Below, one piece after another: positions 1-42,326 of a stretch of DNA of 64,000 nt (position 1 is its first letter; each line of letters starts with the position of its first letter). The DNA is from Acidobacteriota bacterium. GTDB taxonomy: Bacteria; Acidobacteriota; Terriglobia; Terriglobales; SCQP01. The notes beneath the pieces were generated by a model. It was not told the origin of the DNA and did not search any database. It saw only the letters and a list, made by a program, of their open reading frames with translations. Where the stretch lies: the NCBI GenBank assembly GCA_021818955.1, contig JAKASR010000001.1, forward strand, positions 124,001 to 188,000, given 5' to 3'. The translations under genes were made by a program, and so were the position numbers.

Positions 1-2783
1 ACGGCATGTATAAATCCACCGACGGCGGCAAGACCTGGGAACGCATCGGGTTGCGCGACAGCGAACAGATTCCGGCGATCGCGGTGGACCCTACCGATCC
101 CGACCGGGTATTCGTGGCGGCGCTGGGGCATCCGTACGGGCCCAATGCGCAGCGCGGTATTTTCCGCACGACCGACGGCGGACGCACCTGGCAAAAGGTG
201 TTGTACGTCAATGCAAACACCGGCGGCTCGGATGTGGAGATCAATCCCCAAAATCCGCAAATCGTTTATGCCGGGTTATGGGAAGCGCGCGAGGGGCCGT
301 GGGAAAACGGCGCCTGGCAGGGCACGCACGGAGGGTTGTTCGAATCCACCGACGGCGGCACGCATTGGCGCAAGCTGACCCAGGGCTTGCCGAAAAATCT
401 GGTACAGGTCGCGGTGGCGATCGCGCCCAGCAAACCGAGTCGCATTTATGCTTCCGTGGCGTCGTTGCCGCATGGGCTGGGGATATACCGCTCCGACAAT
501 AGCGGCCAAAGCTGGCGCAAAATCACCAGCGATCCGCGACCCGCCGCGCGCATCGGCGGCGGCGACCTGCCCTTGCTGGCGGTGGATCCCAAGAACCCCG
601 ACGTGGTGTATAGCGACAGCGTAGTGACCTGGAAATCCAGCGATGGCGGCAAAACCTGGAAGGGGATCCGCGGCGCCCCCGGGGGCGACGATTACCAGCA
701 CATCTGGATCAACCCCAACCATCCACGCATCATGCTGGTATGCAGCGACCAGGGCGCGATTGTTACCGTCAACGGCGGCAAGACCTGGAGTTCGTGGTAC
801 AACCAACCGACGGCGCAGCTTTATCACGTTGCCGCCGACAACGATTTTCCCTATCACCTTTGCAGCGGCCAGCAGGATAGCGGTTCGGTCTGCATCGCCT
901 CGCGCGGCAACGGCGGCGAGATTACCTTCCGCGACTGGCATCCGGTGGGAGCGGAAGAATACGCCGATATCGTGCCCGATCCGCTGAACCCGAACTACAT
1001 TGTCGGCGGCAAATTGACGCTCTACAACCGCCGGACCACGCAAGCCGCCGACATCGCGCCCGCACTCAGCCGCAGCCAATACAATCGCGTGGTGCGCACC
1101 GCGCCGATCGCGTTTTCGCCGGTCAACCCGCGGCTGCTGTTCTACGGCACCAACGTGGTGTGGGAAAGCGCCAACCTGGGGCATAGCTGGCGCCGCATCA
1201 GCCCCGACCTGACGCGAAAGACCTGGACGACGCCGGCCAATGTCGGCGTGTACCGCAACCGGCTCACCGCCAAACCGACCCGGCGCGGGGTGGTCTATGC
1301 GATTTCACCCTCGCCCTTGAGCGCCGGCATGATCTGGGCCGGCACGGACGACGGTCAGATTCAACTCACCACCGACGGCGGCCAAATCTGGAAAAACGTG
1401 ACGCCGCCACAGTTGCGTCCCTGGGCCAAGGTTTCGTCACTCGATGCCGGACATTTCAATCGCCTGACGGCCTATGCCGCGATTAATACGTTCCGGCTCG
1501 ACGATCTCCGGCCGCACATTTACCGTACGCACGATGGCGGCCGAACCTGGACCGAAATCGTCCAGGGACTACCGGATGATGCGCCCGTCAATGTCGTCCG
1601 GGAAGACCCGAAGCGGCCGGGACTGCTATTTTGCGGCACCGAGCGCCAGGTCTTCGTCTCTTTCGACGACGGCAATCACTGGCAATCGTTGCGGCTGAAT
1701 ATGCCGGCCAGTTCCGTGCGCGACCTGCTGGTTAAAAATGACGATCTGGTGGCGGCGACCCACGGCCGCGGCTTCTGGATTTTGGACGACATCACGCCCC
1801 TGCGCCAAGTGCAGCATCGGATGCTCAGCCAGACCGCGCATTTATTCCGTCCGGAAACCGCCTGGCGAGTGCGCTGGGATACGAATACCGATACGCCGCT
1901 GCCGCCGGATACGCCTGCGGGACAGAATCCGCCCGACGGCGCGGTGATTAACTATTATCTTGGCCAAGCGCCGCAAGGCCCGGTCACCTTGGGCATCTAT
2001 GATGCCGCCGGCAAGCTGGTGCGGCAATATGCCAGCAACGCGCCCCTGCGCCAGGTAAATCCGGCCAAGCTGGATATTCCCGTGTATTGGGTGCGGTCGC
2101 CGCGCCGGCTGCCCGCCACGGTTGGGCTGCATCGCTGGGTTTGGGACCTGCACTATACGCCTCTGCCGGGCACACCCGGTTACCCCATGCAGGCGGTTCC
2201 GCACGATACTCCTCCTGCCTATAATTCGCCTTATGCCCAGCCCGGCCGTTATACCGTTCGCCTGACCGTCAACGGGCACAGTAGCAGCCAGCCGCTCGTT
2301 CTTCGCATGGATCCAAGGGTGAAAACGCCGGCGGCAGGTTTGGCCGAACAGTTTCGTCTTTCCATGGCCATGTACCGCGGCCTGCAGACGCTACAACCCG
2401 ACGTACGCGAACTGCTCGCCTTGCGGACGGCTCTGAAGAAACTACCCGCGAGCGCTCGGCAGGGGACCCTGGGCCAAACTGTCCAATCCGCCAGCCGGCA
2501 AGCGACGGCGCTGGCGGGCGCGCGCATGAGCCTGTTTCAGATGCTGTTTGGGGCGGGTGAACCGACCACCTTAACCGCGATGCAGTTTCAATTAGGCGGC
2601 CTGCTGGGCAGCTTGCAAGCCGCCGATGTCACGCCGACGGTGGCGCAAGCCGAATCGGCAAGCCGCCGGCAGCAAAGGCTGGCTACTCTGCTAGGTAAAT
2701 GGAGTAGCCTGAAAGAACAAACGTTGCCTCGACTGAATCGCGAACTGCGGCAGGCGGGCTTGGCACCAATTCAACTTCGGTGA
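1..2783 (+). CDS. VPS10/sortilin-type BNR-repeat protein (5' end outside window)
   Basis: The frame is already open at the window edge, so the N-terminus is missing; 925 residues are visible from the first ATG at 6. Repeated Asp-box motifs of the type S/T-x-D-G-G-x-T/H-W (STDGGKTW, TTDGGRTW, STDGGTHW, SSDGGKTW, THDGGRTW) run through the first 550 or so residues, the signature of BNR/sortilin beta-propeller blades. The last 350 residues lack the motif and hold a beta-rich segment followed by a helical, Ala/Gln/Leu-rich tail. Large proteins of this class are common in Acidobacteriota and are usually exported; their substrates are mostly unknown, and annotation as glycosyl hydrolase rests on the propeller fold only. 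No catalytic residues can be assigned. Confidence is high for the fold, low for function. Confidence 0.8.
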   Translation, partial: GMYKSTDGGKTWERIGLRDSEQIPAIAVDPTDPDRVFVAALGHPYGPNAQRGIFRTTDGGRTWQKVLYVNANTGGSDVEINPQNPQIVYAGLWEAREGPWENGAWQGTHGGLFESTDGGTHWRKLTQGLPKNLVQVAVAIAPSKPSRIYASVASLPHGLGIYRSDNSGQSWRKITSDPRPAARIGGGDLPLLAVDPKNPDVVYSDSVVTWKSSDGGKTWKGIRGAPGGDDYQHIWINPNHPRIMLVCSDQGAIVTVNGGKTWSSWYNQPTAQLYHVAADNDFPYHLCSGQQDSGSVCIASRGNGGEITFRDWHPVGAEEYADIVPDPLNPNYIVGGKLTLYNRRTTQAADIAPALSRSQYNRVVRTAPIAFSPVNPRLLFYGTNVVWESANLGHSWRRISPDLTRKTWTTPANVGVYRNRLTAKPTRRGVVYAISPSPLSAGMIWAGTDDGQIQLTTDGGQIWKNVTPPQLRPWAKVSSLDAGHFNRLTAYAAINTFRLDDLRPHIYRTHDGGRTWTEIVQGLPDDAPVNVVREDPKRPGLLFCGTERQVFVSFDDGNHWQSLRLNMPASSVRDLLVKNDDLVAATHGRGFWILDDITPLRQVQHRMLSQTAHLFRPETAWRVRWDTNTDTPLPPDTPAGQNPPDGAVINYYLGQAPQGPVTLGIYDAAGKLVRQYASNAPLRQVNPAKLDIPVYWVRSPRRLPATVGLHRWVWDLHYTPLPGTPGYPMQAVPHDTPPAYNSPYAQPGRYTVRLTVNGHSSSQPLVLRMDPRVKTPAAGLAEQFRLSMAMYRGLQTLQPDVRELLALRTALKKLPASARQGTLGQTVQSASRQATALAGARMSLFQMLFGAGEPTTLTAMQFQLGGLLGSLQAADVTPTVAQAESASRRQQRLATLLGKWSSLKEQTLPRLNRELRQAGLAPIQLR

Positions 2784-37885: not shown

Positions 37886-40282
37886 ATGGAAAATATGCCA
37901 CGCGCAAGCCAGCTGCTTTTCTCCTTTTGCCTCGTTGCCGGCCTTTGTTATCGCGCCTCTTGCCAACTGCCCAAGCGGCTGGATTTGGCGGCGGATATCG
38001 CTCATCCACGGCTGCAACGCACGCTGCACCAGCCGTTGCCGGAGCACTATATCTGGACGGCGGGCAAGGCGGCGAAAGGCGCGGAACATGATTTTTTACG
38101 GATTTTCCGGCTGCAGTCGTTGCCGGCGCAAGCGATGCTCTATGTCGCCGGACCGCGGCAATTTACCGTTTGGGTCAATGGCCTACGCGCCGGGGCGGTC
38201 CAGCCGAAGCGCGGGAACCTGCGCCCGCAGGTCATGAGTGCAGCGGTGAAACTCCAGTCCGGGGAAAACCGGCTGGCGGTGGCCGCCCGCGGCGGTGACC
38301 GGCTGGTGGTGAAGATCGTGCCGGCAGCGTATGGCGAGAACGCGACGCCGGTGCTGATCAGCGATGCGCGCTGGCGCGGCGCGATCAACGCCGCCGCCGG
38401 TTGGCGGAGGGCCGGGTCGGCGGCCTCCGGATGGCAACCGGTCAAAGACCTGGGCGGGATCGAAAGCCATATTGACAACTTTCAGTGGAACGCGGATTCC
38501 GGCCTGTACGCCTGGCCGGGCTATGACGGCATATCACCTTTTCTGGCGCGGATGCCGGTGCTGGCGCGGCGAGTGCTGCAAATCCAGGCGGGCAGAGGCA
38601 AGTTTCAGGGCCTGCAGGCCTTGGCCTCAGCCCGCCAATTGCAGGCGGCGGGGCGGGGGTTTGCGGTGCGGGTTCCGGTGGGAACGCCCCAGGCGAAGCA
38701 GCCCAGCCTGGTGCTGGATTTCGGGCGGGAAATGGATGGCCGGATCGCGCTGGAATCGGCCGCCCGCCAGCCCTTCATCGTCGTCGCCAGCTATGGCGAG
38801 TCGCTGGGAGAGACCCGGCATCCTTATCTGGGCGCAACGCCGATCTATGTTTTACCCGGCCGGGTAAGCTATGGCCCCAAGAGCGCGTTCCGCTACGTGC
38901 GCTTGCAGTTTCCCGCGAATTTTCCGGGCTGGGAGCGCTTTCGAGCGGTGCGGCTCGACAATATTTATTACCCGGTGCAATATCGCGGCAGCTTCAGCTC
39001 GTCCGACCCGCTGCTCAATCGCATATGGGCGACGGGCGCTTATACCGCGCATTTATGCATGCTCGATGATATCTGGGACGCGCCAAAACGCGACCGCGGC
39101 CGCTGGATGGGCGATCTGGACGTTAGCGGCCGGGTGATTGACACCGTCTTCGCCGATCATTTCCTGATGCAGGACACCCTGAACCGGCTGGCCGGGGATG
39201 CGCAGCACCCGGCGCAGCACGACGTCAACGGCATTCCCGGCTATTCGGCCTTTTGGGTGATGGGCGAGCACGATTATTACCTGCACACGGGCGACCTCGC
39301 CTACCTGCGCTCGCTGCATGCCCAGTTGTTGGCGCTGCTGGCATACATGAGAACGGAGATGCCGGCGGCGCGGTTCGTGAACCCGCACCATGCCTGGCCC
39401 TTTGTGGATTGGTCGCCCGGGCTTTTCGGCGACAATGCGGCCACGCGCCGGGCGACGCAACTGGAGTTTTACCGCGCCTTCCAAAACGGCGCCTGGATGT
39501 TGCGCCAGATGGGCGACCAGGCGTCCGCGCGGAAGTGGGCCGATTATGCCCGCCGGGTGCGCCAGGTTGCGCAAGGCCAACTGCGCACCGGCAATACTTT
39601 TGGGCGGCGCTGGCAGACTAACGCCATGGCGGTATTTTCCGGGGTTGCCAGCCCGGCCGAGCGGCAGGCGATCTGGAGCCAGGTGCTGTCGCGCCCGAAA
39701 ACCGCGATGATTACGCCCTACTACAATTTTTATGTAATTGAGGCGATGGCGAAGCTGGGCCATCGCCGGCATGCGCTCGATTGGATACGGCAATACTGGG
39801 GAGGCATGATCCGGGAGGGCGCCACCAGCTTTTGGGAAGCCTACGATCCGGCCTGGCCGAAACAGAACTTCCATAAATACCTGCAAGCCGACAACGGCAT
39901 GGGCTATTTCGTCAGCCTCGCGCACGGCTGGTCCAGCGGTCCCACCGCCTGGCTGACCGAGCAGGTTTTGGGGCTGAAGCCGCTGACCCCAGGCTTCCGG
40001 CAGATGCAGATTCGACCCGACCTGCTGGGATTGCGCCGGGCCCAAGGCAGCGAGCCCACGCCGGGCGGGGTGGTGAAGGTCCGCTATCATGCGCTCGGCG
40101 GCGGGCGGCTGCGGGCGCGCATCCTGCTGCCCGCGGGCGTGGAGGCGCGCGTGCTCATGCCGGCGCCGGCGGGAGCCGGCGTGAAGGTCAATGGAAAGCC
40201 GATGGCCGCGCGGCGCGTCGAGCAAGGCCAGCGCCTGCGCGTATGGTTAAAGCACGCCGGCAGCTATACCCTCACCAACTGA
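37886..40282 (+). CDS. GH78-like alpha-L-rhamnosidase, secreted
   Basis: 798 residues. Signal peptide (residues 1-26, hydrophobic FSFCLVAGLCYRASC). A carbohydrate-binding-like beta domain precedes an (alpha/alpha)6 catalytic barrel (about 345-700) with DDIWDAPKRDRGRWMGDLDVSG, where acidic residues match the GH78 catalytic loop, and the C-terminal ATSFWEAYDP and LAHGWSSGPTAWL motifs typical of rhamnosidases. Expected to remove terminal L-rhamnose from plant or bacterial glycans in the periplasm or outside. It diverges from galU; selD begins 61 bp after it. Substrate specificity is an inference from family. Confidence 0.82.
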   Translation: MENMPRASQLLFSFCLVAGLCYRASCQLPKRLDLAADIAHPRLQRTLHQPLPEHYIWTAGKAAKGAEHDFLRIFRLQSLPAQAMLYVAGPRQFTVWVNGLRAGAVQPKRGNLRPQVMSAAVKLQSGENRLAVAARGGDRLVVKIVPAAYGENATPVLISDARWRGAINAAAGWRRAGSAASGWQPVKDLGGIESHIDNFQWNADSGLYAWPGYDGISPFLARMPVLARRVLQIQAGRGKFQGLQALASARQLQAAGRGFAVRVPVGTPQAKQPSLVLDFGREMDGRIALESAARQPFIVVASYGESLGETRHPYLGATPIYVLPGRVSYGPKSAFRYVRLQFPANFPGWERFRAVRLDNIYYPVQYRGSFSSSDPLLNRIWATGAYTAHLCMLDDIWDAPKRDRGRWMGDLDVSGRVIDTVFADHFLMQDTLNRLAGDAQHPAQHDVNGIPGYSAFWVMGEHDYYLHTGDLAYLRSLHAQLLALLAYMRTEMPAARFVNPHHAWPFVDWSPGLFGDNAATRRATQLEFYRAFQNGAWMLRQMGDQASARKWADYARRVRQVAQGQLRTGNTFGRRWQTNAMAVFSGVASPAERQAIWSQVLSRPKTAMITPYYNFYVIEAMAKLGHRRHALDWIRQYWGGMIREGATSFWEAYDPAWPKQNFHKYLQADNGMGYFVSLAHGWSSGPTAWLTEQVLGLKPLTPGFRQMQIRPDLLGLRRAQGSEPTPGGVVKVRYHALGGGRLRARILLPAGVEARVLMPAPAGAGVKVNGKPMAARRVEQGQRLRVWLKHAGSYTLTN

Positions 40283-40343
40283 TAACATCATAATTAAAGC
40301 GATCGGAGCCGCATGGCGGCCGCCGGTCCAGGCAAGGAGGCCC

Positions 40344-41387
40344 ATGACGGAAGTGGCGACGCGGCGGCTGACGGAGATGGCCAAAGCCGCGGGTTGAGCG
40401 GGCAAATTGAGTCCAACGGCGTTGGACGCGGTTTTGGGCAAGCTGCAACGCTCGCCCGACCCTAATCTGCTGGTCGGCTTTGAAAAAGCCGATGACGCCG
40501 GCGTGTACCGTTTGTCGGACGAGCTGGCGCTGGTGCAGACGGTGGATTTTTTCTCGCCCATTGTGGACGATCCGCGCAGCTTCGGCCAAATTGCCGCCGC
40601 CAACGCGCTGAGCGATATTTACGCCATGGGCGGACGGCCGCTGACCGCGCTCTCGATCGTCGGCTTTCCGGAAAATGAAAATTGGGAACTGCTGGAAGAC
40701 ATCCTCGCCGGCGGGCAAGAGAAGCTGCAGGAGGCCGGCTGCACGCTGGCGGGCGGGCATAGCGTCAAAGACGACGAGATCAAATTCGGCTATGCCATTA
40801 CCGGCTTGATCGATCCGCGCCGCATTCTGCCCAACAGCGGAGCCCAACCGGGAGACGCGCTGCTGCTGACCAAGCCGCTGGGCACGGGCGTGATCAGCAC
40901 CGCGCTGAAGCGCGGCGCCTGCCGCAAAGAGCATGCCGCCGCCGCCGTCGCCAGCATGAGCCGGCTCAACCGCCGGGCCTGCGAGCTGATGCTCGAATAT
41001 CATCCCCACTCGGCCACCGACATCACCGGCTTTGGGCTGGCGGGCCACGCGCGCGAGATGGCGCTGGCCAGCGCGGTCACGCTGCGCCTCGCCTGCAGTC
41101 AACTGCCGCTGCTGCCCGGCGCCCTCGACTACGCCTTGCAATACCAGCCGCAAGGGTTGAAAAACAACCAGGCGTTTGCCGAATGCGCCGTGGCTTATGA
41201 TGCCGAACTGCCGCCGGAAATCCGGGCGCTGCTCTACGATCCGCAGACTTCGGGCGGGCTGTTGATTGCGCTGCCGGAAGCCGAGAGCGGGGCGCTGCTG
41301 GAAAAAATGCTGGCCGAGGGGATCGTGGCGGTCCGGATCGGCACGGCGGAAGTTAAAGGCGATTGCCCGCTGCGGGTGGGCCTTTAA
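40344..41387 (+). CDS. selD: Selenide, water dikinase; selenocysteine-containing (in-frame TGA)
   Basis: Read through TGA 40395-40397 the protein has 347 residues. AAGGAGG sits 3 nt before ATG 40344. The first 22 residues read MTEVATRRLTEMAKAAGUAG then KL, which aligns with the E. coli SelD active site: U18 replaces Cys17 and K21 equals Lys20; the second Cys of the E. coli C-G-C is Gly20 here. The remainder is standard SelD: VQTVDFFSPIVDDPRSFGQIAA, LAGGHSVKDDEIKFGYAITG, ATDITGFGLAGHAREM. It makes selenophosphate from selenide and ATP for selenocysteine and selenouridine synthesis. Ordinary gene calling would start at the TTG 40407 and lose the active site. selA, selB and selC must lie elsewhere. 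Confidence 0.94.
40411..40427 (+). promoter_or_regulatory. Bacterial SECIS-like hairpin in selD
   Basis: GTCCAAC-GGC-GTTGGAC is a perfect 7-bp stem with a three-base loop beginning GG. The loop lies 21-23 nt after the TGA, within the 16-37 nt window reported for bacterial SECIS apical loops, which typically have G among the first loop bases. It would recruit SelB. Confidence 0.8.
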
Positions 41388-41510
41388 CCTTCCGGAATTC
41401 GGGAGCGGATGCCCGCCAGAACAGGCAACGCGCCCGCGAGCCCAGAGCATGAGCAATTCCGAGCCAGCGCGGCTGGCATTGCACAAGGCAGAGGCGGTAA
41501 ACTCGCTGCT

Positions 41511-42326
41511 GTGACTTTGCGCATACGGATCGCAGGCGAATGGCCGGAGGCGGCGCGGGCAGGCGAATGGACGCTCGAGCTGGATAGCGCGGCGGCGGCG
41601 CCCGAGGGGCGGCGGCTGGCGGCCTGGCAGCGTTTGCTGCGCGAGCGCCGGGCCGCGCGCGGCTGGGACGAAATCGCGGCGGCGCGGGCGTTGCAAGCGC
41701 CCGGCATCCGCGCCATAGCCGCGCTGCTCAACCGCGATTGCGATGCGGCTTTGCTGGCTTTGCCCGAAACCGAATGCCGTCCGGCGCTGGCGTTGCTCGA
41801 GCCGCAAGGCAGCGGGCGCGCCGCCGTGCCGGCGCATTTTGCCACGCCCGCGGGAGAAGACTTCACTGCACCGCGGGCGGCGGCCAGCTATGCCTGGCTG
41901 TCGCCGCCGCGCGCGGCCACCGTGGGCGAAATCGCAGACACGCTGGCTAGCGCCGCAGCCTGGATGGGAGCGCGCGCGGGCTGCGCGGCGACGGCGGTGG
42001 TGGTGCAATTTGCCGCCGGGAAGAATCCTGCCGCGCGGCAGGCGCGGGCGGTGGGCGAGCACGTCAAGAGCCGCGCCCAGGCGGCGCAAGTCGAAATTTA
42101 TAGCGGATTGTTTTACCGGCATGGCCAGTTGGAAGCTTCCCGGCTGTTGTCGGCGATCCGCGCCGCACTGCCTTCCGGAGCGCAAGCCTCACTGCCGGTC
42201 TGCTGGTCGCCTCAACTCGATCTGGCGGCGCTGGGACACGGCTTAAATGAGGAAGGCGGCGGCTGGAGCGGAGCGATTTTGGCCGGCGCCGAGGCGGTGG
42301 CGGCGATGCTGCCTCCGCCCACTTGA
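41511..42326 (+). CDS. Hypothetical protein downstream of selD
   Basis: 271 residues if started at GTG 41511 (MTLRIRIAGEWPEAARAGEW); the open frame extends up to 41409 but lacks coding character there. Highly Ala/Arg-rich with several segments likely to be helical. No motif or family recognised; no signal peptide or membrane helix seen. It begins 123 bp after selD in the same direction, so it may share its transcript, but nothing links it to selenium metabolism. Codon usage is consistent with a real gene. A stop TGA is followed by another 26 open codons, which I attribute to chance. Confidence 0.55.
   Translation: MTLRIRIAGEWPEAARAGEWTLELDSAAAAPEGRRLAAWQRLLRERRAARGWDEIAAARALQAPGIRAIAALLNRDCDAALLALPETECRPALALLEPQGSGRAAVPAHFATPAGEDFTAPRAAASYAWLSPPRAATVGEIADTLASAAAWMGARAGCAATAVVVQFAAGKNPAARQARAVGEHVKSRAQAAQVEIYSGLFYRHGQLEASRLLSAIRAALPSGAQASLPVCWSPQLDLAALGHGLNEEGGGWSGAILAGAEAVAAMLPPPT

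Follow-up and report, generated by a model that had tools for sequence, protein, structure and literature searches.

The window, the whole 64-kb stretch of DNA that was analysed, carries at positions 40344-41387 of the forward strand a selD gene, which encodes a selenide, water dikinase. Its start codon is the ATG at 40344-40346, preceded by the Shine-Dalgarno-like sequence AAGGAGG (40334-40340, forward strand, read from the sequence) at the somewhat short spacing of 3 nt. The frame is interrupted only once, by an in-frame TGA at 40395-40397 (forward strand), and beyond this codon it is open up to the TAA stop at 41385-41387. If the TGA is read as selenocysteine (Sec, U), the product is 347 residues long and has its Sec at position 18, in the motif KAAG-U-AGK. 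An earlier sequence-only reading of this DNA had described exactly this arrangement, from AAGGAGG and ATG through the TGA to an otherwise unbroken SelD, and re-reading of the sequence reproduced it without change. The 5' neighbour of selD (37886-40282, forward strand) is an alpha-L-rhamnosidase-like gene (Bac_rhamnosid6H) with apparently no connection to selenium, and directly 3' of selD lies an open reading frame of 305 aa (41409-42326, forward strand) without a Pfam match, which may or may not be a gene.

The identity of the protein is clear from profile and domain searches, in which it scored 375 bits against the selD profile TIGR00476 (cut-off 125; profile positions 1-309 of 311) and contained both the AIRS and the AIRS_C domain. 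When aligned with the solved SelD chains 3u0o and 2yye, the Sec residue stands opposite the Cys of the AGCGCK motif of 3u0o, which places the TGA at the catalytic Cys position, as had been proposed. The surrounding sequence, AAGUAGK, follows the UxxK pattern, Sec and then Lys in the N-terminal glycine-rich loop, and we infer a catalytic role for Sec18. The expectation that gene callers would truncate selD held for plain ORF calling, which yields a frame at 40407-41387 starting from TTG, with 326 aa and the Sec residue excluded, in agreement with the literature (PMC13188914).

Shortly after the TGA, a putative apical hairpin of a bacterial SECIS element is located at 40411-40427 (forward strand), formed by the arms GTCCAAC (40411-40417) and GTTGGAC (40421-40427) around the loop GGC (40418-40420). 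Its seven base pairs are perfect and its loop lies 21-23 nt beyond the TGA, just as the first reading had claimed. The 62-nt stretch folds with an MFE of -24.2 kcal/mol (z -2.2), and the hairpin agrees with all four published bSECIS rules (a 3-nt loop with a 7-bp stem, G in loop positions 1-2, 20 nt from UGA to loop, and MFE <= -7.5). Among 3946 distinct TGA contexts examined in the same genome, only five showed a perfect 7-bp/3-nt hairpin at exactly this spacing; such rarity argues that the selD hairpin is not due to chance. A GG-loop was found in only two of these five, selD and a candidate AhpD-like selenoprotein gene (see below). Conservation does not extend to the lower SECIS stem, where pairs 10-13/31-34 are formed in only 67-88%, and an Rfam search of the window at the gathering threshold gave no match.

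The machinery for Sec insertion was sought in the whole genome, a draft of 3.80 Mb in 47 contigs that is 96% complete. The absence of selA, selB and selC had been named as the observation that would speak against Sec insertion in this organism; all three were present, which supports the claim that it inserts Sec. A tRNA-Sec with the anticodon UCA scored 65.7 bits (cut-off 47) and was also called by ARAGORN, selA scored 523 bits, and selB reached 339 bits in all, with GTPase, beta-barrel and winged-helix domains, of which SelB-wing_2 fell slightly below the Pfam cut-off (21.7 vs 22.3) and wing_3 was clear at 60 bits. While selD and selB share one contig at a distance of about 98 kb, selA and tRNA-Sec are located on other contigs (three contigs in total). 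The sel genes are thus dispersed and form no operon, so that gene neighbourhood adds no support. Of 121 class genomes, 90 had both selD and selA, 24 had neither and 7 were discordant (agreement 114/121), where presence means a strong match and the lists were compiled by hand from two search outputs; five of the seven discordant genomes are only 81-88% complete.

The sequence-only reading had also predicted further selenoproteins, and two candidates emerged. The first is a TxxU peroxiredoxin with an in-frame TGA at the peroxidatic Cys (locus L115, positions 1771-1773, minus strand, contig C5 of this genome), about 6 kb from tRNA-Sec. Its motif FTSGUKHEL aligns with AFTGICQGEL of AhpE Rv2238c, and its TGA is followed by a perfect 8-bp hairpin with a GTC loop, GGCTATCA-GTC-TGATAGCC. 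The best 30 matches in the class contain one TGA each, at the same codon in all 26 for which the motif was placed; in the remaining four (L127-L130) the TGA was counted by the search, yet not placed by the motif search. The Sec form of this peroxiredoxin is kept across much of the class. The second candidate is an AhpD-like CMD protein (locus L150, positions 1384-1947, TGA at 1621-1623, contig C43) with the motif NHCEYULASH, in which CxxC has become CxxU. Its hairpin, CCGCCTT-GGC-AAGGCGG, is perfect and identical to that of selD in distance and loop. As selenoproteins were sought one family at a time in this genome, the three predicted ones (SelD, peroxiredoxin and AhpD-like protein) represent a minimum. 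For the formate dehydrogenase FdhA (TIGR01553), the genome gave only weak matches, none above the cut-off and none with an in-frame stop. Selenouridine synthase (TIGR03167) had no match in the genome and no TGA form of thioredoxin (PF00085) was found there; a search for the UGSC family gave no match, but neither did its controls, so this negative carries no weight.

Decoding of UGA as Cys or Trp by another tRNA, instead of as Sec, would also explain an open frame across the TGA, and recoding of UGA to other residues does occur in nature. This reading is very improbable here, as the genome encodes tRNA-Sec (UCA), SelA and SelB, the UGA is followed by a SECIS hairpin, and ordinary genes of this organism stop at TGA, the peroxiredoxin gene being one example.

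The comparison of selD across the class connects the hairpin to the TGA. One TGA was found in 112 of the 149 selD matches listed for the class, and the close comparison set of 90 SelD genes contains 60 with TGA, 25 with TGC and five with TGT at the catalytic position, the TGA occupying the same codon in 59 genes besides the one described here. The four core pairs of the hairpin (GTCC/GGAC) are Watson-Crick in all 60 Sec forms but in only 6 of 30 Cys forms (Fisher p 1.3e-16, not corrected for the tree). In one Sec form (L079), both arms are altered in compensation, giving the stem CGCC/GGCG in GCGCCAGG-GGT-CCTGGCGC. On an unrooted tree of the proteins, built with the trait residue masked, at least 13 changes between Sec and Cys are required, of which seven are forced by well-supported branches. 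Among independent pairs on this tree, wherever the hairpin differed it was always found with Sec (mean 5.5 to 0, median sign-test p 0.03). The encoded residues (Ser/Gly-Pro and Leu-Asp) already fix part of the hairpin core, but synonymous codons show selection beyond this: Asp in the 3' arm is encoded by GAC in 59/60 Sec forms, and the Cys forms have 11 GAC and 11 GAT. Some Cys forms keep the hairpin, among them the Cys-SelD gene L030 (TGT), whose whole SECIS hairpin, GTCCAAGTATTTTGGAC, is likely to be a fossil of a recent change from Sec to Cys. The Gly codon preceding the TGA is GGT in 59/60 Sec forms and 4/30 Cys forms, a preference that fell short of significance on independent pairs (median p 0.125) and that may stem either from common descent or from an influence of codon context on UGA recoding.

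These comparisons bear on the view that the TGA is a true stop and that a shorter SelD, devoid of the catalytic residue, is made from a start such as TTG 40407. Plain ORF calling yields precisely this frame, and termination at the UGA by some ribosomes is to be expected. However, the stretch RLTEMAKAAG that precedes the TGA is conserved in relatives and in the solved SelD chains, the good ribosome site lies 5' of the ATG at 40344 and not of the TTG, and the hairpin is present in every TGA form and mostly gone from Cys forms. On these grounds a truncated SelD was rejected, and we give it hardly any credence.

Similarly, a sequencing artefact, or a pseudogene that arose when an ordinary Cys-SelD gene recently acquired a nonsense mutation, has a negligible chance of accounting for the TGA: the assembly is a draft in 47 contigs, but a TGA shared by so many relatives is not a sequencing error, selA, selB and tRNA-Sec appear intact, and the conservation of TGA plus hairpin refutes both versions. 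A scan of named genomes with SelD revealed only two close relatives, Ca. Sulfopaludibacter SbA3 and a Bryobacteraceae MAG. Their SelD is 59-63% identical to the present one in the best segments, both carry the identical TGA codon and the hairpin, and they make an acidobacterium the most likely source of this DNA.

The gene at 40344-41387 therefore almost certainly encodes a Sec-containing selenophosphate synthetase that would be made by standard bacterial UGA recoding. In the proposed sequence of events, SelA would convert Ser-tRNA-Sec to Sec-tRNA-Sec, using selenophosphate made by SelD, and SelB together with Sec-tRNA-Sec (UCA) would bind the hairpin of the selD mRNA, 14-30 nt 3' of the UGA. 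Sec would then be inserted at UGA 40395-40397 without termination, and Sec18, which lies in the flexible N-terminal loop, would provide the selenol for catalysis by SelD. By this route, the synthesis of SelD would depend on selenophosphate that SelD itself makes, and SelD would also supply at least two other predicted selenoproteins, the AhpD-like protein and the peroxiredoxin. What is established at the level of sequence is the frame with its TGA, the conservation of the hairpin, the full set of Sec genes and the other genes with in-frame TGA, and from these we infer Sec insertion in vivo and binding of the hairpin by SelB. Judged in the same way, the gene combines three marks of a bacterial selenoprotein, namely a UGA at a redox-active residue that is Cys in homologues, a conserved SECIS element, and selA, selB and tRNA-Sec.

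A gene that plain annotation would shorten is hereby set right, and the organism can be credited with a selenocysteine trait that comprises at least three predicted selenoproteins, FdhA not having been found in its genome. Several genomes with Cys-SelD retain the Sec-peroxiredoxin (e.g., G044, G118, G076 and G037), so a genome with a Cys-containing SelD need not have lost the trait. Since Sec and Cys alternate often among relatives that retain the remaining machinery, the class offers a good natural setting in which to ask why SelD contains one or the other. A tentative and rather doubtful proposal is that the Sec machinery of the class is kept by a small peroxide-defence set (Sec-peroxiredoxin and Sec-AhpD-like protein) and not by formate dehydrogenase or selenouridine, while SelD switches frequently between Sec and Cys under the retained trait, some Cys forms, such as L030, carrying a fossil SECIS that is still intact.

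Sec-containing SelD, which the first reading had described as known in some bacteria, has been known for two decades, and it is the commonest form of SelD in this class. Among prokaryotic selenoprotein families, only one is more widespread than SelD (PMC13188914), and Sec was found in 19% of SelD genes of a prokaryote reference set, always at this catalytic position (PMC4561486). TxxU peroxiredoxins and AhpD-like proteins have both been listed as selenoproteins before (PMC13188914; PMC9312934). For Acidobacteria, a report of 2006 counted four selenoproteins, belonging to three families, and found no selenouridine trait; Sec organisms without FdhA were described there to have a Sec-SelD (PMC1794560), which fits the lack of detectable FdhA and selenouridine synthase in the genome studied here. 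Three known selenoprotein genes have been reported in Occallatibacter riparius (PMC12013277). These earlier acidobacterial selenoproteomes concern other genomes; the families found here are SelD, TxxU peroxiredoxin and CxxU AhpD-like protein. The published bSECIS model (PMC13188914) is broader than the single exact geometry that selD has in common with the AhpD-like gene here, namely a GGC triloop at +21 to +23. With the Sec-SelD/SPS2 family (TIGR00476), the present protein has in common the fold family, Sec at the catalytic position, the UxxK motif and a SECIS directly after the UGA, and it differs in nothing of principle, the Sec form being dominant in this class. The Sec-SelD described here is real but ordinary in kind, one of a group of genes that are known and, in this class, common.
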